Shown piece by piece: positions 26,933 through 63,434 of a stretch of 64,000 nt of DNA; position 1 is the first letter of the stretch, and every line of letters begins with the position of its first letter. A program made the position numbers and the translations under genes. The stretch covers positions 248,001 through 312,000 of the forward strand of contig JAFUNI010000016.1 of the NCBI GenBank assembly GCA_017482385.1, given 5' to 3'. The notes under the pieces were generated by a model, which had not been told where the DNA came from, made no database searches, and was given only the letters and a program-made list of their open reading frames with translations. Source of the DNA: Oscillospiraceae bacterium. Lineage in GTDB: Bacteria; Bacillota; Clostridia; Oscillospirales; Oscillospiraceae.

Positions 26933-27127
26933 AATTGAATATCGCTGTGAACGGAAAGAGTACTGCATCCAATCCTTCAGAGAACCTGGGTCGTCGGCTG
27001 TAAGCCTGGGTGGTGTCGGTAGCAGGAAAGTGCGTCCGGGAGCGAATTTGTTTTGAGTGATAAATAAGAGTGGAACCGCGAGTTGTTTGACCCGCCTCTT
27101 GTGCCAGCGGCATAAGAGGCGTTTTTT
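26933..27127 (+). ncRNA. T-box leader, cysteine specific
   Basis: The conserved T-box GAGTGGAACCGCG occurs at 27068-27080. Upstream is a stem I region with an AGAGTAC-type loop and the codon TGC at 26964-26966, the expected Cys specifier. A terminator stem GCCTCTT (27094-27100) / AAGAGGC (27114-27120) with a T6 tail follows. Uncharged tRNA-Cys would pair with the specifier and T-box and allow read-through into cysS. This explains the whole 26828-27148 gap. Confidence 0.92.
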
Positions 27128-32992: not shown

Positions 32993-33027
32993 AAATACCC
33001 ATCGGTATCAACCGATGGGCATTTTTT
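32991..33027 (+). terminator. Bidirectional terminator between cysS and aro operons
   Basis: CCCATCGGT (32998-33006), loop ATCA, ACCGATGGG (33011-33019), with T6 on the plus side and TATTTTTA on the minus side. Confidence 0.88.
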
Positions 33028-33460
33028 AACTGCCATATTTTTCAGTAAGGTAGATAATTGCCTGCCTATAGCCGTCAATACCCTGTCCTTTGATTGTTTT
33101 CTCGCAGTACATACCAGCATAAGAAATCTGCCGGAAGGCCTCTCGGGAATCCACATCAGAGATGTGCACCTCCACAGCGGGAATCGAAACGGATTTTAGT
33201 GCATCCAAAATGGCAACCGAGGTGTGGGTGTAGGCTGCCGGATTGATAACGATACCATCGTAATCCCCGTAGGCAGCCTGGATCTTGTCCACAAGAGCCC
33301 CTTCGTGATTGGATTGGTATTGATCAATCGCAATACCGGTTTCCTTAGCGGTTTGGTTTATCAAATCCAAAAGATCAGAAAAGGTCTGCTTTCCGTAAAT
33401 GCCAGGCTCACGAATACCAAGCATATTGATGTTGGGTCCGTTCAAGACTAAAATTTTCAT
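33026..33460 (-). CDS. aroQ: Type II 3-dehydroquinate dehydratase
   Basis: 144 residues from ATG 33460; AAAGGATG precedes it and a frame to ATG 33472 has no usable site. Signatures: ILVLNGPNINMLGIREPGIYG with catalytic Arg/Tyr, QSNHEGALVDKI, NPAAYTHTSVAI and VEVHISDVDSRE with the catalytic His. Third step of the shikimate pathway. Last gene of the eight-gene aromatic operon; its start lies just past the aroEK stop. Confidence 0.95.
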   Translation of the reverse strand: MKILVLNGPNINMLGIREPGIYGKQTFSDLLDLINQTAKETGIAIDQYQSNHEGALVDKIQAAYGDYDGIVINPAAYTHTSVAILDALKSVSIPAVEVHISDVDSREAFRQISYAGMYCEKTIKGQGIDGYRQAIIYLTEKYGS

Positions 33461-33468
33461 TTGTCGTT

Positions 33469-34680
33469 TCATCCTTTCAAAATTTGTGTAACCGCATCGT
33501 CCAGACTGGAATCGTTAGATACAGTATAGTCTGCAAACTGTTCATACATAGGCTTGCGGACACTGAACATTTCTTCCAGCTTACCCGACTGAGAAAGGGG
33601 TCTTCCGTCGGTGGGCAGGGAAGTGATATCCCGCTTGATCCAATAAATCGCTCCGTTTTGGTGCAAAAGAGGATAGTTTTCCGCTCTGGTGACACAGCCA
33701 CCGCCGGTAGCGATCACAAGACAGGATTTTTGACCTAATTTGGTCAGTACCTGGGTTTCAATTTTGCGGAAGCCGTCTTCTCCCTGCGTTTCAAAGATTT
33801 CCGGAATCGACATACCCGCTTCGTTTACAATTTCTGCATCAGCATCTACAAATTCGCGGTTCAGTTCTTGGGCAAGCAACTTGCCCACGGTAGATTTACC
33901 ACAACCGGGCATTCCAATCAGAACGATATTCTCCATTCGCTTACACATTTTGTCATAGATTTCGGGAATGACATCATCACTGATTTTTATGCCTGTAAAC
34001 CATTCTGCCGCTTCTTTTGCTTGGGCAACCAGCATCCAAAGTCCGTTTTCACAGGGGATATTTCTTTCAGCAGCGTCGAGCAAAAGCTTTGTTCTTGCAG
34101 GATTATAAATAATATCCAGCACACCTTCCAAGTTTGGGAACATATCCAGGTCCACCGGAGAAATACCGGCATTGGGGTACATACCCACCGGGGTGGTGTT
34201 TACAATGGCTGCTGCATCCCTGTGCAGATGTAAATTGGTATAGTTGTTTTCTCCGGTGCGGGAGATGATCACCACATTTGCGCCCAGTTCCTTTAAGACG
34301 ATTACGGCTGTTACAGATGCGCCACCGCTGCCAAGCACCAAAACTTTCTTTCCGGTTAGTGAAAGCCCCATACGGTTAAAGGTGTAATGCAGCCCAAAGT
34401 AATCGGTATTATGGCCGATCAATGTACCGTCAGTGCGGCGAACAATGGTATTGACAGCGCCCATCTTTTTCGCGCAATCTGTCAGCTCGGCGCAGTAGGG
34501 CATAACATCCTTTTTGTAAGGGATTGTTACATTGATGGCTGTGAAATCGCCATTTTGCAGGAAACTTCCCACATCCTTAGGTTCTTTCTCAAAGAGGGTA
34601 TAGGGATAATCACCCAAATAACTGTGAATTTGCGGGGAATAGCTGTGGCCCAGAGTTCTGCCCAGTAATCCGCATTTCAT
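33469..34680 (-). CDS. aroE/aroK: Fused shikimate dehydrogenase-shikimate kinase
   Basis: 403 residues. Residues 1-240 are shikimate dehydrogenase: LGHSYSPQIHSYL, NVTIPYKKDVM with the catalytic Lys, HNTDYFG with the Asp, and the NADPH loop VLGSGGAS. Residues ~250-403 are shikimate kinase: Walker A GMPGCGKSTVGK, FVDADAEI, GEDGFRKIE and TGGGCVT. The two steps are consecutive in the pathway. Linker KMCKRMENIV suggests a clean gene fusion; the Met in it could once have been the kinase start. Its ATG abuts the pheA stop. Confidence 0.95.
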   Translation of the reverse strand: MKCGLLGRTLGHSYSPQIHSYLGDYPYTLFEKEPKDVGSFLQNGDFTAINVTIPYKKDVMPYCAELTDCAKKMGAVNTIVRRTDGTLIGHNTDYFGLHYTFNRMGLSLTGKKVLVLGSGGASVTAVIVLKELGANVVIISRTGENNYTNLHLHRDAAAIVNTTPVGMYPNAGISPVDLDMFPNLEGVLDIIYNPARTKLLLDAAERNIPCENGLWMLVAQAKEAAEWFTGIKISDDVIPEIYDKMCKRMENIVLIGMPGCGKSTVGKLLAQELNREFVDADAEIVNEAGMSIPEIFETQGEDGFRKIETQVLTKLGQKSCLVIATGGGCVTRAENYPLLHQNGAIYWIKRDITSLPTDGRPLSQSGKLEEMFSVRKPMYEQFADYTVSNDSSLDDAVTQILKG

Positions 34681-35823
34681 TTATACCACCTCGGTATAGC
34701 TTCCAAGATATTTAAATTCTTCGCAAAGGTCGTCCAATTCACACATCAGCTGGACAAACTCTTCAGAATAAATGGAGGTTTCTAAGTCAAAATAGAACAT
34801 AAACTCGAAATCCTTGTCAGGCAGAGGACGGGATTCCAGTTTGATGACATTGATACCCAGCACGTACATACGGGCCAGCACCTTGTAAAGCGCGCCGGGC
34901 TTGTGGGGTAGAATCATCATAATGCTTGTCTTGTCAGCGCCGGGATAAATCTCCAAATTCTTGCTGATGCAGATAAACCGTGTGCGATTATTGCCCTCAT
35001 CCTGTACAGAATCGGCCAGGCTCTTAAGACCATACAGCTCTTCACAGGTGTGGCTGGCAATGGCGGCTATATCGGTTCGACCGGACTTGGCAACCGTCTC
35101 TGCGGCAACGGCTGTGTTCTCGACGGGAATCACCTTGATGTTGGGGTGGTTCTTCAAGAAGTCACCACACTGATTGATGGCCTGTTCATGAGAGTAGATT
35201 TCTTTAATATCTGCAAGCTTAGCACCGGGCAAAGCAATCAAATTATGATCCACCTTCATACGGAAGGTTCGCACAATGGAGAAGTTATGATGGATCATCA
35301 GGTCATATACCTTTTTCACAGAACCAGCGGTAGAGTTTTCAATGGGCAGAATGCCGTACTGGCAAAGTCCCTGTTCAATGGCATTGAAAACACCGTCAAA
35401 GTTCTTGAAATACATAATCATCGGCGATTTGAAGATCTTCTCACAGGCGATTTGAGAATAAGCACCTTCTACACCCTGGCAGGCAACCATTGGTGCTTGG
35501 GGGAAGAGTTTCTCGGTTTTATCAATAGACGCAGTGATATTTTGGTACAAGGGAGTAGTTTCGGAGTTGCGCTTGCTCTGATAGCTTCTGCTCAGCTCAA
35601 AAAGCATAGAGTAAAGCACCCGGGTATAATTTGCCATTTCCGGACCGGCTTTCGCAGCCACATCCTGTAGGATCTCCCGCTCCCGGGCAGGTATATAAAT
35701 AGGCATGTTGTTTGCTTTTTTGTAATCTGCGACCTGAGCAGATAAATTCATGCGCTTGACGAAAAGCTGAACAAGTTCGTCGTCAACAGCGTCGATTTGC
35801 GTTCTGATATCTTTCAAATCCAT
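34681..35823 (-). CDS. pheA: Bifunctional chorismate mutase-prephenate dehydratase
   Basis: 380 residues from ATG 35823 behind GGGAGGAA. Residues 1-85 are an AroQ-type chorismate mutase (MDLKDIRTQIDAVDDELVQL). Residues ~110-285 are the dehydratase (QGVEGAYSQIA, FDGVFNAIE, LPIENSTAGSV, NNRTRFICI with the conserved TRF). Residues ~295-380 are an ACT domain with the ESRP phenylalanine-binding motif (KLESRPLP), so allosteric inhibition by Phe is expected. It overlaps the aroC stop by 10 bases. Confidence 0.96.
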   Translation of the reverse strand: MDLKDIRTQIDAVDDELVQLFVKRMNLSAQVADYKKANNMPIYIPAREREILQDVAAKAGPEMANYTRVLYSMLFELSRSYQSKRNSETTPLYQNITASIDKTEKLFPQAPMVACQGVEGAYSQIACEKIFKSPMIMYFKNFDGVFNAIEQGLCQYGILPIENSTAGSVKKVYDLMIHHNFSIVRTFRMKVDHNLIALPGAKLADIKEIYSHEQAINQCGDFLKNHPNIKVIPVENTAVAAETVAKSGRTDIAAIASHTCEELYGLKSLADSVQDEGNNRTRFICISKNLEIYPGADKTSIMMILPHKPGALYKVLARMYVLGINVIKLESRPLPDKDFEFMFYFDLETSIYSEEFVQLMCELDDLCEEFKYLGSYTEVV

Positions 35824-36911
35824 TGGTATTCCTCCCAAAGCTTGCAGTCAAGCAAGTACATATCAAAGATGGCAATAGCAGCTGCGGCTTCGATGACCGG
35901 AACTGCCCGGGGTACAATACAAGGGTCGTGACGGCCCTGTACAGACAATTCCTGCTGCTCCATGCGTCCCAGGCTTACAGATAGCTGCTGCCGGGAGATG
36001 GACGGTGTGGGCTTGATGGCGACTTTGAAAATTAAAGGCATACCGGTAGTGATGCCGCCCAGAATACCGCCGGCATTGTTGGTTGTGGTTGTGATCCTGT
36101 TATCTGTTACGGAGTAAGGGTCGTTGTTTTGGCTGCCACGAAGCTCGCTGCCGGCGAAGCCGGAGCCAAACTCCAACCCTTTCACAGCGGGAACACCGTA
36201 AATGATTTGCGCAAGCTTGCTTTCCATACCGCCAAACATAGGCTCACCCAATCCGGCGGGTAGGCCGGTAATGGCGCATTCAATTGTACCGCCGACACTG
36301 TCGCCATCAGCTTTCGCTTTTATAATCTCTGCAAGCATTTGCTTGCCTGCGTTGGTATCAAGCACAGGGAATGTATTTTGTACAGCGGTCAGATCCGGAG
36401 AAACCCAATCAAATGATTTATCTGAGATTCCGGCAATTGAACTGATGTGAGCGCCAATTTGAATGCTCTTTAATTCCAGCCACTGCTTGCACAGACCGCC
36501 GGCAATGCACAAAGGTGCGGTAAGACGACCGGAGAAATGTCCGCCGCCGGCAACATCCTGGTAGCCCTTATATTTGATTTGCGCAGGGAAGTCTGCATGA
36601 CCGGGTCTGGGACAGTCCTTGAGGTTGCTGTAATCCCCGGAGCGGGTGTTTGTGTTGCGGATAATGGCAGACAGCGGTGCGCCGCAAGTGAAGCCGTCTA
36701 CAAGGCCGGAGAGAAATTCCGGCTGATCGGCCTCTTTTCGTGATGTTGCAAAACTTCCCTGGCCGGGAGCCCGTCGAGCCAAAAAGGCATTCAATGCCTC
36801 AAAATCAACAGGGAGACCAGCAGGAATTCCGTCCAACGTCATACCGATGGCGGGCCCGTGGGACTGTCCAAATATGGAAAGCTTCAGCTTTTCACCGTAT
36901 GTGCTGCTCAT
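35814..36911 (-). CDS. aroC: Chorismate synthase
   Basis: 365 residues. SIFGQSHGPAIG, RRAPGQGSFATSRKE, the RPGHADF segment with the active-site His, AGGGHFSGRLTA and RHDPCIVPRAVPVIEA are chorismate synthase blocks. It removes phosphate from EPSP using reduced FMN. AGGAGG precedes the ATG and lies within the last codons of aroA (20-base overlap). Confidence 0.97.
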   Translation of the reverse strand: MSSTYGEKLKLSIFGQSHGPAIGMTLDGIPAGLPVDFEALNAFLARRAPGQGSFATSRKEADQPEFLSGLVDGFTCGAPLSAIIRNTNTRSGDYSNLKDCPRPGHADFPAQIKYKGYQDVAGGGHFSGRLTAPLCIAGGLCKQWLELKSIQIGAHISSIAGISDKSFDWVSPDLTAVQNTFPVLDTNAGKQMLAEIIKAKADGDSVGGTIECAITGLPAGLGEPMFGGMESKLAQIIYGVPAVKGLEFGSGFAGSELRGSQNNDPYSVTDNRITTTTNNAGGILGGITTGMPLIFKVAIKPTPSISRQQLSVSLGRMEQQELSVQGRHDPCIVPRAVPVIEAAAAIAIFDMYLLDCKLWEEYQWI

Positions 36912-38088
36912 ATTTGCCTCCTAATTCTTTGTATACCTGCCAAAATGCAGGATAGGATTTAGATACGCATTCTGCGCCTAAGATAGTTATAGGTCCATCT
37001 GCAACGGTAGCCGCTATGGCGGCGGACATTGCGATGCGGTGGTCATTTACTGCGTCGATGGTACAGCAGTGGTATTTGCCCGGTTGCACGGTCAATGTGT
37101 TTTCATCCGCAAAAGCATTCGCACCCAAAGTGTTTAGCATATTACAAACTGATGCTACGCGGTCGGATTCTTTCAATCGCAGACGGGCGATATTCGTAAA
37201 AACCGCTCCTTTTTTTGCACCGGCAACAACAGCCAAAACCGGCACCAAATCAGGAATATCAGCTGCGGAAACAGAGATTCTTTCTTCTAACTCAGAAAGT
37301 ATTTTCGCTGAAGCTCTGTCACCTTGGGGAGAGCCTAAGTCAAGATTGGTGATGGACAGGGGATTGCCAAGAGCCTGTGCAGCCAACCAAAAAGCGCCAT
37401 TGCTCCAATCACCCTCTACAATAAGTTTTCCGGGGGAACGGAAAGGATAATTTCCTTTGATGCAGTAGTTATCTGTATCAACACCGAAAATTCTTAGTGC
37501 CAACTGTGTCATATCCACATAGGATTTGGATTCCAGCGTATCGGTGATGGTAATTTGACTTATTCCGTCCAGCAATGCAGTGGCGAACAGGAGTCCGGTA
37601 ATAAACTGGCTGGATACTTTGCCGCTGAGGGAAAATTCGCCGGATCGCAATTTACCGCTAATGCGGATTGTTGCTTCAGTAGGACGGGTCAAACTGCAAC
37701 CCATTCGCTCTAATTCTTCCCACATTGGCGACAGTGGCCGATAGGGAAGACGGCCTTGCATGTGGAAAGTGGCTTCCACGCCCAAAGCACAGGCTACGGG
37801 TAACAAAAAACGCAGCGTAGAACCGCTTTCACCACAATCCAACACAGCCTTTTGTGGGATATACTTGACCGGATTGACAATATATCCGTTGTCGGTTCGT
37901 TTAATATCCGCACCAAGAGCGTTTAAGCATCGGGCGGTTGCTTCAATGTCAGCGTTGGTTTGCGGGCATTCAAGGATGGTCTGGTTGTCGGAAAAGGCAG
38001 CGCAGATCATCAGTCTGTGGGCTTGGGATTTTGATGGAATTGCCTGGACAGTACCACTTAAGGTACCGGGCAGTATGGTGATGTCCAT
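36892..38088 (-). CDS. aroA: 5-enolpyruvylshikimate-3-phosphate synthase
   Basis: 398 residues from ATG 38088, one base after the aroB stop, with AGAAGG 8 bases upstream; the longer frame to 38148 is inside aroB and rejected. Motifs: PSKSQAHRLMI (PEP/shikimate Lys), LDCGESGSTLRFLLPVA, RLPYRPLSP, and LRLKESDRVAS, DHRIAMSAA. The loop LDCGESGSTLR has Glu-Ser where class I enzymes have NAGTAMR, a pattern of other EPSPS groups; sensitivity cannot be judged from it alone. Confidence 0.95.
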   Translation of the reverse strand: MDITILPGTLSGTVQAIPSKSQAHRLMICAAFSDNQTILECPQTNADIEATARCLNALGADIKRTDNGYIVNPVKYIPQKAVLDCGESGSTLRFLLPVACALGVEATFHMQGRLPYRPLSPMWEELERMGCSLTRPTEATIRISGKLRSGEFSLSGKVSSQFITGLLFATALLDGISQITITDTLESKSYVDMTQLALRIFGVDTDNYCIKGNYPFRSPGKLIVEGDWSNGAFWLAAQALGNPLSITNLDLGSPQGDRASAKILSELEERISVSAADIPDLVPVLAVVAGAKKGAVFTNIARLRLKESDRVASVCNMLNTLGANAFADENTLTVQPGKYHCCTIDAVNDHRIAMSAAIAATVADGPITILGAECVSKSYPAFWQVYKELGGKYEQHIR

Positions 38089-38089
38089 A

Positions 38090-39127
38090 TTACAGACCTT
38101 CTTCAATAAAGAATTCCAGCTTTTCCACCGGGGTGGGAACGATTTCACAATGTCCTATTTCCCGGGGAATAATTAGATTCACTGTACCACCGGAGCGTTT
38201 TTTGTCAGAAAGGGCGCTGGTGTACAGATCTTCTGCGGAAAAATCGGTAGTTGTAGGCAGATTAAATTTCGCCAAAACGGCACACAGTTCAGCATAAATT
38301 GCCGGACTGCCTGCTTTGGAAACAATTGCCATACCAATGGCAACCGCCTGTCCATGCGTGACGGAAAAATTGCTTTGTGCTTCCACGCTGTGACCGATGG
38401 TGTGGCCCAAATTCAGCTTCTGTCTTGCACCGGTATCAAATTCATCTTCGGCAACGACATTTCGCTTTAGTTCTACGCAGCGGGCAATGGCGGCTTCACG
38501 GTCAAATTTTAAGCCCTTTTCAGATAAATGATCAAATAACTGACGGTCATATAAAACACCGTATTTGATCACTTCTGCACAGCCGTCGCAGAAGACAGAA
38601 TCGGGGAGTGTATTCAATGTATCCAGGTCGCACAAAACCAGGTTGGGCTGGTAGAATGCGCCAACCAAGTTTTTGCCGGCAGGCAGGTCAATGGCAGTTT
38701 TGCCGCCAACAGAGGAATCAACCATTGCCAGCAGGGTAGTGGGAACTTGAATATAACGAATGCCCCGTAGGAATGTTGCAGCAGCAAAGCCGGTCATATC
38801 ACCTGTTACACCGCCACCTAAAGCAAGTACTGCGTCAGAGCGGGTCAGATGATTTTCTGCAAGGAAGTTGAGAATGTTTAAATATGTATCGGCATTTTTG
38901 CTGCTTTCGCCTGCAGGGAACACAAAATTAACCACGGAAAAACCTGCGTTCATCAAAGCGGTTTCTGCTGCTTTTCCGTAATGCGGCCAAACATTGCTGT
39001 CGCTGATAATGGCGACCTTACACGGTTTGTTCAGCACGGAAAGAAGCTGCTGACCCAAGTTGTTCAGCAAACCGGCACCAATGAGAACATCATAGCTTTT
39101 GGATGCGGTAACATGGATAGTTTTCAT
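38090..39127 (-). CDS. aroB: 3-dehydroquinate synthase
   Basis: 345 residues. VFPAGESSKN, LALGGGVTGDMTGFAAATFLRGI with NAD and zinc residues, VDSSVGGKTAID, GCAEVIKYG and LNLGHTIGHSVE (zinc His) identify AroB. It cyclises DAHP. Start overlaps the tyrA stop by 4 bases. Confidence 0.97.
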   Translation of the reverse strand: MKTIHVTASKSYDVLIGAGLLNNLGQQLLSVLNKPCKVAIISDSNVWPHYGKAAETALMNAGFSVVNFVFPAGESSKNADTYLNILNFLAENHLTRSDAVLALGGGVTGDMTGFAAATFLRGIRYIQVPTTLLAMVDSSVGGKTAIDLPAGKNLVGAFYQPNLVLCDLDTLNTLPDSVFCDGCAEVIKYGVLYDRQLFDHLSEKGLKFDREAAIARCVELKRNVVAEDEFDTGARQKLNLGHTIGHSVEAQSNFSVTHGQAVAIGMAIVSKAGSPAIYAELCAVLAKFNLPTTTDFSAEDLYTSALSDKKRSGGTVNLIIPREIGHCEIVPTPVEKLEFFIEEGL

Positions 39128-39954
39128 CCGTCCACCTCTTCTTTTCGTTTGCGGCCTTCATCCAGTAGGGTAATCAATGTAGCCGCATCATCTCGGGTGA
39201 TGGCATCCTTATAGGCTTCCAGGCTTTTAATAAAGGCGTCCAGCTCAAAAAGTATGTTTTCCTTGTTGGACATAAACAGCTCTGCCCACATTCGGGGATT
39301 CAGCCAGGCAACACGGGTCAGGTCCTTGTAGCTGCCGGCAGAAAAACCTTTGTGGCTTTGTGCAGTGGGAGATTTGATAAACGCATTGCTGACGATGTGG
39401 GGCATTTGGGATGTAAAAGCGATCATTTTGTCGTGTTCTTCGGCGGTTGTAACGGAGAAAGAGCCAAATTTGCAGGGTTCAAGTGCATCAACTGCCCGTT
39501 GCAAAAGCTCCGGATCGTCAAACCGGTAGGGTACAAGCACCATAGGAGCGCCCTGGAACAGATTGGACCGGCTGTACTTAAATCCGGAGTTGTGAGAACC
39601 AGCCATAGGGTGACCGCCCATAAAGGTGAAACCGTATTTTTCTGCCAAGGGAAAACATCGTTCACAGATGGCTTTTTTGATACCGCAGCAGTCTATAACA
39701 AGGGCTTCTTTTGCTATCAGATGAGCATTGTTTTCCAACCATTGGGCGGAGCCATCGGCAAAGATCGCCAGCAATATTAAGTCACAGCAGGGGATCGTGT
39801 TTGGGTTCAAAACATCCTTGACAGCACCGGAAAGCTGCGCAAAGGTCAGCATACTCTCATCCAGTTCACAGGCATACACACTGTGTCCGGCTTTGGAATA
39901 AGCTCTCGCAAGAGAACCGCCGATCAAACCGAGACCCAGGATACCTACATTCAT
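39124..39954 (-). CDS. tyrA: Prephenate dehydrogenase
   Basis: 276 residues. NAD-binding GILGLGLIGGSLARA, then GGHPMAGSHNSGF with the catalytic His and TTAEEHDKMIAFTSQMPHIVSNA. Converts prephenate to 4-hydroxyphenylpyruvate for tyrosine. No ACT domain, so feedback control by Tyr may come through the leader attenuator and DAHP synthase instead (inference). It overlaps aroF by 4 bases. Confidence 0.95.
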   Translation of the reverse strand: MNVGILGLGLIGGSLARAYSKAGHSVYACELDESMLTFAQLSGAVKDVLNPNTIPCCDLILLAIFADGSAQWLENNAHLIAKEALVIDCCGIKKAICERCFPLAEKYGFTFMGGHPMAGSHNSGFKYSRSNLFQGAPMVLVPYRFDDPELLQRAVDALEPCKFGSFSVTTAEEHDKMIAFTSQMPHIVSNAFIKSPTAQSHKGFSAGSYKDLTRVAWLNPRMWAELFMSNKENILFELDAFIKSLEAYKDAITRDDAATLITLLDEGRKRKEEVDG

Positions 39955-40952
39955 TTTAATACCTCTCTGATTCTTTTCACTTTTTGGTTTAATTCATCAA
40001 ACTGTACAGGGGTTAAGGACTGCGCACCATCGCACATAGCGCAGGCGGGGTTGTTGTGAACCTCGACCATAATGCCGTCTGCGCCGGCTGCAGCTGCTGC
40101 GACAGCCATAGGAGGCACCAGCGCGGCGCGACCGGTTGCGTGGCTGGGGTCGATAACTACAGGCAGGTGTGACAGTTCGTGCAAAACAGGAATTGCGGAT
40201 AGATCCAAGGTGTTTCGTGTATAGGTTTCATAGGTGCGGATACCGCGCTCGCAGAGGATGATATTTTCGTTACCTTCGCTCATAATATACTCTGCGCTCA
40301 TCAGCAGTTCCTGCAAAGTGTTGGCAAGACCGCGCTTCAAAAGAATAGGCTTCTGGGTTTTGCCCAATTCTTGCAGCAGGTCGAAGTTTTGCATATTACG
40401 GGCGCCAACTTGAATAACGTCCACATCCTCAAAAAGATCCAGAGTACGAATATTCATAATTTCGGTGATGATAGGCATACCGGTTGCCTTCTTGGCCTCT
40501 AAGAGAAGTTTAATGCCTTGATCCTTCAGTCCCTGGAAGGCGTAGGGTGAAGTACGGGGCTTAAATGCGCCTCCACGGAGGATATCAGCACCGGCTGCCT
40601 TTACGGCTTGTGCAACCTCAATAATCTGCTCCTCGCTTTCTACAGAGCAAGGACCAGCAATCATTGCAAAATTACCGCCGCCGATTTTTACATTGTTGCA
40701 TTCAATAACACTGTCGTTGGGATGGAATTTTCGGTTGGCCTGCTTAAAGGGCTCAGAAACCCGCTTTACTGTGGCAACGATCTCCAAACTCTTCAGCAGT
40801 TCAATGTCCACACGGCTGGTATCGCCGACCAAACCAAGAATGGTGACTTCCTGACCTTGGGAAATGTGGACATCAAGGCTCATATTCTTGAGCCACTTGA
40901 TTAGATGTTCGGTTTGTTCGGGGGTAGTACCCTGTTTCAATACAGCAATCAT
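39951..40952 (-). CDS. aroF: 3-deoxy-7-phosphoheptulonate (DAHP) synthase
   Basis: 333 residues of the type I-beta class. Residues 1-70 form a ferredoxin-like/ACT-like regulatory domain (MIAVLKQGTTPEQTEHL). The barrel has FAMIAGPCSVES, GAFKPRTSPYAFQG, IQVGARNMQNFDLLQELG, KPILLKRG, and PVIDPSHATG. It condenses PEP and erythrose-4-phosphate, the pathway entry. First structural gene behind the Tyr/Phe leader; AGGAG precedes the ATG by 8 bases. Confidence 0.96.
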   Translation of the reverse strand: MIAVLKQGTTPEQTEHLIKWLKNMSLDVHISQGQEVTILGLVGDTSRVDIELLKSLEIVATVKRVSEPFKQANRKFHPNDSVIECNNVKIGGGNFAMIAGPCSVESEEQIIEVAQAVKAAGADILRGGAFKPRTSPYAFQGLKDQGIKLLLEAKKATGMPIITEIMNIRTLDLFEDVDVIQVGARNMQNFDLLQELGKTQKPILLKRGLANTLQELLMSAEYIMSEGNENIILCERGIRTYETYTRNTLDLSAIPVLHELSHLPVVIDPSHATGRAALVPPMAVAAAAAGADGIMVEVHNNPACAMCDGAQSLTPVQFDELNQKVKRIREVLK

Positions 40953-40965
40953 AACAACATCTCCT

Positions 40966-41005
40966 AAATATAAAAACGCTGCACAGATACGATCCTGTGC
41001 AGCGT
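40966..41005 (-). terminator. Attenuator terminator of the aromatic operon
   Basis: On the minus strand ACGCTGCACAG (41005-40995), 8-base loop, CTGTGCAGCGT (40986-40976), then TTTTATATTT. It lies between the leader peptide and aroF. Confidence 0.9.
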
Positions 41006-41101
41006 CTGAAAATACGACTTACAAAAATAAATGCAGCACAAATCGCTATTACTTTTCTCCGTTAAAAAAGTAATAGTAATAAAAGTAGCTGTATGCAGCA
41101 T
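40994..41101 (-). promoter_or_regulatory. Mutually exclusive leader RNA helices (segments 1-2 and 2-3)
   Basis: Segment 1 ATGCTGCAT (41101-41093), which ends in the first Tyr codon, can pair with segment 2 GTGCTGCAT (41039-41031), eight pairs around one U-U mismatch. Segment 2 extended, TTTGTGC-T-GC (41042-41033), can instead pair with GC-T-GCACAGG (41003-40994), the 5' arm of the terminator. A ribosome stalled on the aromatic codons would cover segment 1 and favour the antiterminator; one that reaches the stop at 41049 would cover segment 2 and let the terminator form. Confidence 0.7.
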
Positions 41102-41117
41102 TTACGGTAGTGACCAT
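41049..41117 (-). CDS. Tyr/Phe-rich attenuator leader peptide, 22 residues
   Basis: ATG 41117 is preceded by GGAGG (41128-41124) with a 6-base spacer. The peptide starts MVTTVNAA and residues 9-18 read YSYFYYYYFF: six Tyr and three Phe in ten codons, then NGEK and TAA at 41051-41049. It lies 24 bases after a predicted transcription start and just upstream of an antiterminator/terminator pair in front of aroF. This is the design of the trp and phe leader peptides, here sensing both tyrosine and phenylalanine. Too short for ordinary gene finders. Confidence 0.92.
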   Translation of the reverse strand: MVTTVNAAYSYFYYYYFFNGEK

Positions 41118-41147
41118 AGTTGGCCTCCAAATAATAAGTATGCAGTT

Positions 41148-41176
41148 ACTATACCACGCTACATATGATTTTGCAA
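41148..41176 (-). promoter_or_regulatory. Sigma-A promoter of the aromatic operon
   Basis: On the minus strand TTGCAA (41176-41171), 17 bp, TATAGT (41153-41148); start of RNA expected near 41141. Confidence 0.65.
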
Positions 41177-41335: not shown

Positions 41336-44077
41336 GTGAAAAAGTTCAATTTTGACCATAACTGGGAATTTACCTTTGACAACTCACTGGATGCTTTTAA
41401 TATTTTTGGCTTTGATAAATATGCTGATGCCAGTGGCGCACCGGCTCGTTTTTATGATTACAGTAACTGGGAGCGTATAGATCTGCCCCATGACTGGGCG
41501 GTTTCCCTGCCAAAAAATTTGGCTGCAAATACCTTTGCCGGCGCTCGGGCCAATACCCATTTTCACCGCTACATGACTGAGCGCTGGAGCCCGGTGGAGA
41601 AAATATACAATGTGGGTTGGTACCGCAAACAGTTTGCCTTTGACCCTGCGTGGGAGGGTAAGCGCGTTTTTTTGGAATTTGAGGGCGTTTTTCGAGATGC
41701 CATCGTGTGGATCAACGGTAGCTATATGGATCGGCACTGTAGCGGATATACTGGCTTTATTCTGGATATTACCGACCATTTACTCCCGGGAGAGGACAAC
41801 TCTGTTGCTGTCCGAGTGGACAGCGACCAGCCGGAGGGTTGGTGGTATGAGGGTGCGGGCATTTACCGCCATGTAAATCTGCTGGTAGGCGAGCCTGTCT
41901 ATTTCCAATATAATCAAACTGTGGTCAAAACTGCCTTGGATGGAAGTGTATATGCCTCAGCGGTTTTGGTCAACGATACCGATGCACCGGCGACACTGTC
42001 GCTGCAGTGGGAAATCAGGGATGATAAAACTGTGGTAGCCACGGCCTCTGAAAATGTGACGGTTCCGGCCTATAATCGGCATCAAGTGTGGGCTCAGATG
42101 CAGGTAGAAGATCCCCAATATTGGACTGTGGAGAGCCCCAATTTGTATACTTTGTCTATTCATGCCGGCGCGGAGGAAACCTCACAGCGGTTTGGAATCC
42201 GCACTGTGTCCTTTGATGCGGAACGGGGATTCTTGCTCAACGGCAAAGAATATAAGATCCGGGGTGCTTGCGTCCACCAGGACTTTGGCGGTGTGGGTAT
42301 AGCTTTGTCTGATAATCTAAATCGCTACAAGATCAAAAAACTCAAGGAAATGGGTGTAAACGCCTACCGCTGCGCCCACCATGCACCTACGCCAGCTCTT
42401 TTGGATGCCTGTGATGAGTTGGGTATGCTGGTGATGGATGAGACCCGTATGTTTGGTACATCCCCTGAGGCAGTGCGTCAGTTAACGGATTTGATCGAAA
42501 GGGATAGGAATCACCCCAGTGTCTTTATCTGGGCATTGGGAAATGAGGAGTTTCGGGTTCAGCATTTGCCAATTAGCGGAAGGTTGATAAAGAAAATGAC
42601 ACGCCTTGCAAAGGCGCTGGACGATACACGCCCGGTTACCTATGGCAGCAATATCGGTGAGTGGTTCGTCGGCGCAGGTGGTGCGTCAGAGGTGCGGGGT
42701 ATCAACTATATCCGCAATGGCACCGGTGACGGTACATGGCTGGAAACCTATCACAGGGAACATCCGGAGCAGCCCGTCATTGGTACTGAGGAAACCAGTT
42801 ATGTAATCAGCCGTGGCGGTGTTAAGACGGATCTTGGAAATGGACTTCTCAGCTCTGCCGGTGATGTGACAATGCCGTGGGGTACAACGCCCAAGGGGTT
42901 TGTTAAGCGCTTTGAGGAAACACCCTGGCTTGCCGGCAGCTTTATGTGGACCGGCTTTGATTACCGCGGAGAGCCAAACCCCTTTATCACAACAAATGTT
43001 TCCTCAAGCTTTGGCACGCTGGACTTAACCGGTATGGAAAAGCCACCTTTCTGGTACTATAAGGCATGGTGGACGGATGAGCCTGTGTTGAAGCTGACAC
43101 CCCACTGGAATCATGAAGTCGGCGAAACAGTGACTATGTACGTGTTCACCAACTGCGAGGAGATCACATTGTATATTAATGGCTGTGCAGTGGAGACAAA
43201 GCGGGTTGCTCAGTTCGATGCGCCTGCATTTACGGTGGAATTCCAGCCGGGAGAGATTGCGGTTGAAGGTAGGCGTAACGGCAAGATATACCGGGATACA
43301 ATCTGTACGGCCGGAAAAACGACAGAAGTACGCTGTGCAACTGAGCTGTTAGCTCACGCCAATGAGGATGTGGGCATCTATCAACTTGAGGCCTATGACG
43401 CGGACGGAAACATCAACCACGTCGCTTCCGATTTGCTGAATCTTTCCGTAGAAAACGGCAAGATTATTGGTGTGGGCAATGGCGACCCTGCATGCTTGGA
43501 CGATGAACAGAATCCTTTGGAGGAAGAGGCAATCTTCCTGCGCACTTTCCATTATGACCACGGGATGTACAGCGTGCCGATGAAGACGCCCAATATGCAC
43601 CGCAGGCGCTATGATTACATAGAAAACGAACCAAAAGTTAATGGCTATGAAGACGATTTCCGAACAGTTGCACAAAACAGTGACAACCGCCTGCCTAAGG
43701 AAACACTAACGCTCACGACCCGTTTTTTGAACGATAAGGGATATGAATATGTGGAGTTTGAGCGGCTGGGTGGTGTGGCGAAGGTATACTTAAACGGAAA
43801 ACTGATCGGTGACAATCTTCGCGGGCGTGGACGGGTGTCTTGTTGCAATATCCGCCCGTACAGGTTCTACTGTGACATTTTGGAGGGAGAAAACGAGTTG
43901 ACTGTGGTGACGGAGCAGCAGGAATCCTCCGGCTTGCCTTTCTCCGGCTATGTTAAAGTGGGTAAGCTGGTTGAGAAGCCCTACAAGGTGCGTTTGCATT
44001 ACGGAAAGGCCCGTGTGTTTGTGAAGTCCGGTACCCCGGATAAGGTCAAGCTGACAGCCATGCTTTCACTTGATTGA
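41336..44077 (+). CDS. Glycoside hydrolase family 2 beta-galactosidase-like enzyme
   Basis: 913 residues starting with GTG 41336 behind AAAGGGGGAAAA. Sugar-binding domain (~1-190: WERIDLPHDWAV, WVNGSY-type WINGSYMDRHCSGYTGF), immunoglobulin-like domain (~195-290), then the TIM barrel with IRGACVHQDFG, acid/base Glu404 in WALGNEE and nucleophile Glu485 (or 486) in GTEETSY. The C-terminal ~330 residues hold further beta domains. No signal peptide, so it cleaves imported oligosaccharides in the cytosol. Beta-galactosidase is likely; beta-glucuronidase or other GH2 specificities are possible. No sugar transporter is adjacent. Confidence 0.9.
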   Translation: MKKFNFDHNWEFTFDNSLDAFNIFGFDKYADASGAPARFYDYSNWERIDLPHDWAVSLPKNLAANTFAGARANTHFHRYMTERWSPVEKIYNVGWYRKQFAFDPAWEGKRVFLEFEGVFRDAIVWINGSYMDRHCSGYTGFILDITDHLLPGEDNSVAVRVDSDQPEGWWYEGAGIYRHVNLLVGEPVYFQYNQTVVKTALDGSVYASAVLVNDTDAPATLSLQWEIRDDKTVVATASENVTVPAYNRHQVWAQMQVEDPQYWTVESPNLYTLSIHAGAEETSQRFGIRTVSFDAERGFLLNGKEYKIRGACVHQDFGGVGIALSDNLNRYKIKKLKEMGVNAYRCAHHAPTPALLDACDELGMLVMDETRMFGTSPEAVRQLTDLIERDRNHPSVFIWALGNEEFRVQHLPISGRLIKKMTRLAKALDDTRPVTYGSNIGEWFVGAGGASEVRGINYIRNGTGDGTWLETYHREHPEQPVIGTEETSYVISRGGVKTDLGNGLLSSAGDVTMPWGTTPKGFVKRFEETPWLAGSFMWTGFDYRGEPNPFITTNVSSSFGTLDLTGMEKPPFWYYKAWWTDEPVLKLTPHWNHEVGETVTMYVFTNCEEITLYINGCAVETKRVAQFDAPAFTVEFQPGEIAVEGRRNGKIYRDTICTAGKTTEVRCATELLAHANEDVGIYQLEAYDADGNINHVASDLLNLSVENGKIIGVGNGDPACLDDEQNPLEEEAIFLRTFHYDHGMYSVPMKTPNMHRRRYDYIENEPKVNGYEDDFRTVAQNSDNRLPKETLTLTTRFLNDKGYEYVEFERLGGVAKVYLNGKLIGDNLRGRGRVSCCNIRPYRFYCDILEGENELTVVTEQQESSGLPFSGYVKVGKLVEKPYKVRLHYGKARVFVKSGTPDKVKLTAMLSLD

Positions 44078-63176: not shown

Positions 63177-63434
63177 AAAAAAATAAGCCCGTCGTCCGTA
63201 TCGGGACGAAGGACCTTACCTCCGCGGTACCACCCGCAATTCGCTTGAAAGCGCACTTTCGGTGCAAACACACCTTAGATACTTAACGGAATCACCCGGC
63301 AAACCCTACTAAAATTTCAAGTAGCAGCTCCTGGGGGAAAGCCCTGTGCCGCGCGCGAGCGGTTCCCACCATCCCGCTCTCTCTGTGTGCGTGTTGTCGG
63401 CAAAAGACGACCCAATCATCGCTTTTGTTTATTC
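63177..63434 (-). ncRNA. T-box leader, phenylalanine specific
   Basis: On the minus strand GGGTGGTACCGCGG, the T-box, spans 63235-63222. Upstream GGGTGATTCCGTTA presents TTC at 63291-63289, the Phe specifier codon. A terminator helix CCTTCGTCC / GGACGACGG (one mismatch) with a run of seven T at 63183-63177 follows. Stem I occupies about 63300-63430. This explains the gap 63141-63440. Confidence 0.92.

Follow-up and report, generated by a model that had tools for sequence, protein, structure and literature searches.

What controls transcription of the operon for aromatic amino acid synthesis in an Oscillospiraceae bacterium, and does the short region in front of it read the supply of Tyr and Phe? 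The locus lies in the window, meaning the whole stretch of 64,000 nt analysed here (assembly GCA_017482385.1, contig JAFUNI010000016.1, positions 248,001-312,000 of the forward strand). On its minus strand, from 41176 to 40952, a promoter-like site, a GGAGG, a 22-codon ORF, a linker, a terminator hairpin and an AGGAG precede aroF in that order (Table 1). Ribosome-mediated attenuation is textbook knowledge, and low-GC Gram-positives are usually taught as users of T-boxes or TRAP for their aromatic genes. An earlier note on this DNA had proposed that a Tyr/Phe leader peptide, alternative RNA pairings and termination before aroF act together here. That mechanism is supported, as leader, terminator and both conformations are conserved. 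The sequence comparisons and predicted folds make it highly probable that the element belongs to the ribosome-mediated transcription attenuators of the trp/phe type, sensing Tyr and Phe supply for the whole operon; translation, stalling, read-through, a role for the inner stem and the action of both amino acids are what we infer for it.

The eight ORFs 3' of the leader are named by NCBIfam as aroF, tyrA, aroB, aroA, aroC, pheA, aroE-aroK and aroQ, and the earlier count of eight shikimate, Phe and Tyr genes stands. aroF is the sole PF00793 match in the genome assembly. With this naming, the amino acids that would be sensed, Tyr and Phe, are the products of the operon. The promoter-like site is weak by itself, since a scan of the region returns two such sites and shuffles average 1.4; transcription would start near 41141. 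Next to the leader lies a large divergent ORF (41336-44077, plus strand), which by eye resembles a beta-galactosidase-like glycoside hydrolase of family 2.

Table 1. Features of the leader and of the operon behind it, numbered by position in the window.
Feature	Position	Strand	Basis and remarks
Promoter-like site, TTGCAA-N17-TATAGT (TG before -10)	41148..41176	-	consensus scan, 9/12 matches
SD of leader ORF, GGAGG	41124..41128	-	sequence
Leader peptide ORF, 22 codons, MVTTVNAAYSYFYYYYFFNGEK, TAA then in-frame TAG	41049..41117	-	sequence; alike in 80/83 usable genus upstreams
Control codons 9-18, Tyr Ser Tyr Phe Tyr Tyr Tyr Tyr Phe Phe	41064..41093	-	sequence
Segment 1, 5' arm of outer 1:2 stem (partner 41040-41027), competes with 2:3	41092..41105	-	folds
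Inner stem, 13 bp between 41076-41064 (control codons 14-18) and 41058-41046 (Lys codon, double stop)	41046..41076	-	folds
Segment 2: antiterminator strand (41046-41033) and 3' side of outer 1:2 stem (41040-41027)	41027..41046	-	folds
Segment 3 (5' arm of terminator plus some of its loop), pairs with segment 2	40989..41003	-	folds without terminator 3' arm
Intrinsic terminator 3:4, 13-bp stem (41007-40995 with 40986-40974), T tract 40976-40972 (five T's)	40972..41007	-	folds, scan
SD of aroF, AGGAG	40961..40965	-	sequence
aroF, DAHP synthase	39951..40952	-	NCBIfam TIGR01361, 401.7 bits
tyrA, prephenate dehydrogenase	39124..39954	-	NCBIfam, below curated cut-offs
aroB, 3-dehydroquinate synthase	38090..39127	-	NCBIfam TIGR01357
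aroA, EPSP synthase	36892..38148	-	NCBIfam TIGR01356, 277 bits, below cut-off 287
aroC, chorismate synthase	35814..36911	-	NCBIfam TIGR00033
pheA, chorismate mutase-prephenate dehydratase	34681..35838	-	NCBIfam NF008865: dehydratase over cut-off, chorismate mutase domain below
aroE-aroK fusion, shikimate dehydrogenase and kinase domains in one ORF	33469..34680	-	NCBIfam, both below cut-off
aroQ, type II dehydroquinate dehydratase	33026..33472	-	NCBIfam TIGR01088

The short ORF is preceded by an SD sequence and carries a run of end-product codons, its translation being predicted. Nine of the ten codons in the run are aromatic and six, the first one included, are Tyr. When the 400 nt upstream of aroF are dinucleotide-shuffled, none of 2000 shuffles reaches nine aromatic codons and two reach eight, so that the Tyr-Ser-Tyr-Phe-Tyr4-Phe2 run noticed earlier at codons 9-18 is confirmed in sequence and exceeds chance. 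The positions first given for the elements are likewise right to within a few bases by sequence, scans and folds. For the leader RNA the predicted folding energy is -53.1 kcal/mol (z -5.55), and 0 of 200 shuffles do as well. Its TAA (41051-41049) is placed such that, with the usual ribosome footprint, a ribosome there would reach the start of the antiterminator strand at 41046.

The genus set comprises 101 genomes, 86 of which have a DAHP synthase match. Upstream regions were taken for 84 (those of G020 and G042, and of a further, distant match in G094, were left out), and 83 are usable, L034 being too short at 71 nt. An SD-preceded ORF with at least seven aromatic residues in ten is present in 80/83 of these regions, 0/83 reverse complements and 0/830 shuffles; a control tally of leaders with an SD counts 4/830 shuffles. 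All 80 leaders have at least two Tyr and at least two Phe in the run. An intrinsic terminator lies between leader and first gene in the window and follows the leader in 79 of the 80, as against 46/800 shuffles. The expectation that relatives would have a Tyr/Phe ORF and a terminator upstream of DAHP synthase is thereby borne out, and the loss of aromatic run or hairpins that was to count against the proposal is not the general picture in the genus. The three members without a leader (G034, G010 and G035; loci L175-L177) have the most divergent DAHP synthases among those fetched (57-67% identity), with another ORF close upstream. Aromatic leaders also accompany DAHP synthases 63-72% identical to that of the window in metagenome bins labelled Treponema, Thermoguttaceae, Kiritimatiellae and Lentisphaerae (L056, L076, L099 and L104), which reflect either misbinning or horizontal transfer. 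Among cultured relatives, Angelakisella massiliensis (L084) has a leader of this kind.

Folding of partial transcripts reveals the alternatives open to this RNA. A window RNA from 41073 to 40988, which lacks segment 1 and the terminator 3' arm, folds segment 2 onto 41003-40989, and an RNA from 41036 onward folds into the terminator. Antiterminator and terminator are mutually exclusive, and 2:3 in the window folds only without the 3' arm; once that arm is present, the terminator beats 2:3 even without segment 1, so that timing must decide read-through. Of the candidate protector hairpins 1:2, only the outer stem both excludes 2:3 and has its 5' arm in the ORF. In stepwise folds of the 80 genus leaders, outer 1:2 is formed in 71 before segment 3 is added; adding segment 3 and the loop, still short of the 3' arm, gives 2:3 in 45, 1:2 in 31 and neither in 4; in the whole leader, outer 1:2 is present in 70. 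For the window, the middle step gives 2:3 at -36.4 kcal/mol and a forced 1:2 at -35.4 kcal/mol, and in these calculations the switch appears poised, with both pairings at nearly equal energy. Since the ribosome-free middle step slightly favours 2:3, termination without translation is not assured. These folds, together with the alignment described below, uphold the proposals that segment 2 pairs either with segment 1 or with the terminator 5' arm, where 2:3 also reaches into the loop, and that segment 1 competes with 2:3 through the outer stem.

The attenuator would operate as follows. With ample charged tRNA-Tyr and tRNA-Phe, the ribosome would reach the TAA and cover the start of segment 2, 3:4 would form, and transcription would stop before aroF. 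When charging of either tRNA falls short, the ribosome would stall within codons 9-18; a stall at an early codon would cover segment 1 (41105-41092) and let segment 2 (41046-41033) pair with 41003-40989 before the 3' arm is made, which would allow read-through. Early codons should matter most, because with the usual ribosome footprint early stalls would cover outer segment 1 and late ones leave it open. With no ribosome, 1:2 would form first and compete with 2:3 at nearly equal energy, with a less certain outcome. Owing to the mixed run, a shortage of either amino acid would open the operon, which a single T-box could not achieve.

Covariation in the genus alignment is uneven among these pairings, and the covariation of segments 1 to 4 asked for earlier is seen for 1:2 with 3:4 and is slight for 2:3. 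In the conformer with 1:2 and 3:4, 87.5% of cells are paired (slid versions reach at most 56.0%) and 14 of 34 pairs are changed on both sides; for the terminator, this holds for 9 of 11 counted pairs. The 2:3 conformer has 88.1% of cells paired, with slid versions at 59.4% or less, and few double changes within the genus (7 cells; 115/500 shuffles are as high). Outer 1:2 by itself is paired in 71.6% of cells, its best slid version in 54.6%; it beats letter shuffles at 0.05 in only 24/80 members, and the window, at 0.26, is not among them. RNAalifold, unaided, proposes the inner stem and the terminator.

The inner stem, which was missing from an otherwise accurate list of segments 1, 2 and 3:4, has 13 bp and is nested within the outer 1:2 stem in the folds of the window leader. 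Across the 80-leader genus alignment, the codons CTATTACTTTTT are reverse-complementary to AAAAAGTAATAG, the stretch of the Lys codons and double stop. All 12 of 12 pairs are possible in 69 of these leaders, 11 in ten and 10 in one, and 97.8% of alignment cells are paired. The pair counts contain almost no covariation (a double change in 1/960 cells) because the stem is nearly invariant within the genus. It forms in 80/80 leaders at every stage of the stepwise folds; it fits both conformations and therefore does not itself switch. The idea that it excludes 2:3 was accordingly rejected, the stepwise folds having it in both states. In L030 the stop of the ORF falls on the initial letters of the 3' arm, and Lys-Lys is lost while the nucleotides of the arm are retained; in L172 both arms are altered together, with Ser in place of the usual Tyr. 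L305, which precedes a symporter gene in a relative, has different yet, by eye, complementary arms. Because L030 retains the arm and L172 changes both arms, the 3' arm seems to be held for the RNA rather than for the peptide. Lys-Lys as a peptide signal was rejected, as the identical nucleotides make up this arm. The inner stem may tether segments 1 and 2 to each other or cause the polymerase to pause.

Aromatic leaders are widespread beyond the genus. A search across class Clostridia finds DAHP synthase in 218/291 genomes; the sample consists of 89 upstream regions, one per genome, chosen mainly from better-scoring matches and so not random, of which 87 are long enough. An SD-preceded leader with at least six aromatic residues in ten is present in 57/87 of them, in 1/87 reverse complements and in 7/870 shuffles, and a terminator accompanies 51 of the 57 (29/570 in shuffles). 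Such an element was first thought unusual in a relative of Clostridium, a view that these counts do not bear out. Among named contigs, in which some genomes overlap the genus set, 56/79 have the leader and 52 of those 56 the terminator. Within the order, the leader is present at 23 of 28 examinable DAHP synthase loci, one of them being a genus member. L290, L362 and L365 were excluded from the order and family control loci because their upstreams were short and misplaced, and a few others are off by tens of bases for the same reason. Several clostridial families (L245, L264, L250 and L240) possess a second leader type with a recurring SWGYFYFSAGYF-like core that includes Trp; Trp occurs in the run of 18/57 class leaders.

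Pairing between segments 2 and 3 was compared in 126 non-redundant loci pooled from all five sets (genus, family, order, class and named), a few of them in front of genes other than that of DAHP synthase. Native 2:3 duplexes average -14.8 kcal/mol as against -11.2 kcal/mol for swapped partners, and 0/2000 permutations are as low. Against a letter-shuffled segment 3, 74/126 loci pass 0.05; taken singly, only 31/126 do better than 95% of swapped partners. By itself, the 1:2 region folds at z < -2 in 17/19 family, 11/19 genus, 16/31 named, 5/11 order and 13/46 class loci; it is less clear outside the family because fewer loci there reach this level.

Leader peptides differ widely across the class, their common feature being mainly aromatic richness. 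This bears on whether the nascent peptide might itself arrest the ribosome on a free aromatic compound, as TnaC does, instead of the ribosome stalling at uncharged codons. Within the genus the aromatic run and the Lys-Lys end are very constant, as such a peptide would be; the RNA stem explains this constancy, given that L030 keeps the nucleotides without Lys-Lys and L172 joins its Ser to a matching change. With the variety of class peptides also against it, TnaC-like arrest is very improbable.

Composition also bears on how many amino acids act. The same attenuator could respond in vivo to only one of them, most likely Phe, the other codons being passengers, and there is precedent in Corynebacterium glutamicum, where the AroR leader answers to Phe limitation and not to Tyr although it contains both codons (PMC11802643). 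On the other side, at least two Tyr and at least two Phe are retained in 50/57 class leaders as in 80/80 of the genus, Tyr supplies six of the ten run codons in the window and the first of them, and the operon makes both amino acids. A one-amino-acid response is unlikely, if well worth weighing, and sensing of both Tyr and Phe is preferred.

Known RNA regulators do not account for the site. No Rfam family reaches gathering level in the window, and matches at the site, followed up to E 5, are all below cut-off, so Rfam annotation overlooks the element. A T-box, riboswitch or other Rfam family was rejected here on this ground. The genome yields 12 matches to the T-box family RF00230 down to 60 bits, six of them over the family cut-off, and none is at the leader, where the scan extended to E 5. 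By eye the 12 precede valS, tyrS, metG, ileS, thrS, pheS, two trpB-type genes, alaS, cysS and two others; that of tyrS is over the cut-off, those of pheS and the two trpB-type genes below it. Two T-box matches lie in the window, at 63199-63428 (minus strand, 84 bits, by eye pheS) and 26938-27102 (plus strand, 60 bits, by eye cysS); both are below the Rfam threshold and missing from the gathering-level scan. The roughly ten closely spaced (G/U)AG triplets of a TRAP-type leader are not seen by eye at the site. At gathering level, 60 of the 89 class upstream loci give only two tRNAs, a weak negative for T-boxes because even in the genome of the window 6 of the 12 T-box matches fall short of that level. 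A T-box consensus pattern gives candidate matches in 1/89 class loci, in order locus L287, which also has a leader, and before one TrpX and one PaaK gene.

Could the RNA nevertheless be a riboswitch or bind a protein, the short ORF being incidental? Its secondary structure is strong, and a similar Firmicutes element, the trpB motif (RF04312), was first called a riboswitch candidate; it is described before ABC transporter genes and sometimes trpB (PMC11109978). Such an RNA would be expected neither to escape every Rfam threshold nor to keep an SD and an aromatic ORF in 80/83 genus and 57/87 class loci whose RNA sequences differ, and we consider it highly improbable beside the attenuator. RF04312 does not match the leaders of TrpX and trpB genes up to E 0.5; its possible relation to peptide attenuators deserves a look.

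In the window's genome, a covariance model built from the 80 genus leader sequences has a single full match (E 6e-28). The second-ranked match (E 0.023) is partial, with 35 positions, and falls at this same place on the other strand. Under stricter filters the model matches 44/120 family genomes (51 places) and 20/197 order genomes. Twenty family hits were taken: 12 precede DAHP synthase, two pheA, two TrpX-like substrate-binding protein genes, one a PaaK-like ligase gene, one a sodium symporter gene and one a trpB-like gene, and the last, the weak hit L303, has no leader and was taken as false. A further hit (G467) lies just before a TrpX-like gene. The aromatic leaders with model hits before genes other than aroF (L302, L304, L305, L307, L308, L310, L313 and L350) come from single relatives. 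The names are approximate, most NCBIfam scores being below cut-off: 244 and 241 against 390 for TrpX, 546 against 646 for PaaK, 323 against 366 for the trpB-like gene, which is cut by the contig end, and 217.5 and 213.4 against 219 for pheA. The runs are IAWFWWF before the trpB-like gene, FTFFYF before both pheA genes, FFFAFYF before the PaaK-like gene and YYYYY or FYYYFYF before the TrpX-like genes. Composition thus roughly matches some genes, W-rich with trpB-like and F-rich with pheA and PaaK-like, and Tyr/Phe leaders do not fit the name of the TrpX-like transporters, nominally for Trp.

Most of the pheA, PaaK and TrpX homologues read in the family have no leader, which is absent from 29/30 pheA homologues read (of 75 matches), 28/30 PaaK homologues (of 54) and 25 of 28 examinable TrpX homologues (30 read of 51 matches). 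Recruitment beyond the aro genes is therefore sporadic, and a regular multi-gene regulon was rejected. The same counts weigh on the proposal that the leader senses slow translation in general, like a drug-type attenuator, rather than amino acids. In principle any stall upstream of segment 2 could free that segment; leaders, however, stand mainly before DAHP synthase, at 23/28 order loci, as against 1/30 for homologues of pheA, in the window an internal gene of the operon, 2/30 for PaaK-like and 3/28 for TrpX-like genes. A general slowdown sensor is accordingly extremely improbable, and amino acid sensing is retained.

A wider, joint reading is plausible if not quite probable: aromatic leader-peptide attenuation may be the usual control of shikimate entry across class Clostridia, beside T-boxes, in the form of a module re-tuned through the composition of its peptide. 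Leader-peptide control would be usual because one peptide can combine two or three tRNAs as an OR gate, something impossible for a single T-box. Re-tuning would give Tyr/Phe before aro operons, Tyr/Phe/Trp in lineages with the SWGYFYFSAGYF-like core, Trp-rich runs before the trpB-like gene and Phe-rich runs before pheA and PaaK-like genes, and the TrpX-like transporters with Tyr/Phe-rich leaders would import Tyr or Phe. If so, many Clostridia would meter the shikimate pathway by ribosome position and keep T-boxes for single-tRNA tasks such as tyrS and pheS. The class would then offer a clean test of the choice between the two devices and a large body of comparative data on how attenuators evolve, and substrates of unknown transporters could be guessed from their leader peptides.

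Among known systems, the closest in layout are E. coli trpL and pheL, which have a leader ORF with end-product codons, alternatives 1:2, 2:3 and 3:4, and an intrinsic terminator. The window element has the same arrangement of ORF, alternatives and terminator. It differs in its mixed Tyr/Phe run over a whole shikimate-Phe-Tyr operon, in its clostridial Firmicute host, in an inner stem of control codons and double stop that fits both states, and in an antiterminator that reaches into the terminator loop. A T-box binds uncharged tRNA directly and has no leader ORF; compared with T-box leaders (RF00230), the window element is likewise predicted to respond to amino acids, but it has a leader ORF.

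Full-text searches, which covered mostly non-subscription papers, turned up no account of this Oscillospiraceae element, of its inner stem or of its spread through the class. The earlier remark that none was known may hold for this element; related leaders are in print. AroR of C. glutamicum, a tested leader before aroF (Neshat 2014, via PMC11802643 and PMC4046766), is, as described there, also a Phe/Tyr leader peptide attenuator before DAHP synthase; it is actinobacterial and has Phe-Tyr-Phe, whereas the window has nine aromatic codons in ten. uORFC-13-1, a uORF with at least one Phe codon and a terminator before aroF, is reported with 24 representatives, from Acholeplasma and unknown environmental sequences only (PMC8632094); by that description, this low-GC relative shares with the window a uORF with Phe codons and a terminator before aroF. 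Two candidate Phe/Tyr uORFs beside shikimate genes, mentioned in the legend of Fig. 6b of Stav 2019 (PMC6429828), embody by description the same idea as the window leader. The main-text parts of that paper name no species for the two uORFs and show neither an alignment nor alternative pairings nor a distribution; the two may be the clostridial version of the window element, because Clostridium novyi is among the five genomes studied there (PMC6429828). Tyr biosynthesis in the Bacillus cereus group has a T-box (PMC2494555). Peptide attenuators of the same kind for other amino acids are reported in Firmicutes: His leaders in a few lineages where others use T-boxes (PMC2965389, PMC9413887) and a Leu attenuator peptide in Staphylococcus aureus (PMC5794164). 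Set beside all of these, the attenuator principle is old, and its breadth across Clostridia is the interesting part.
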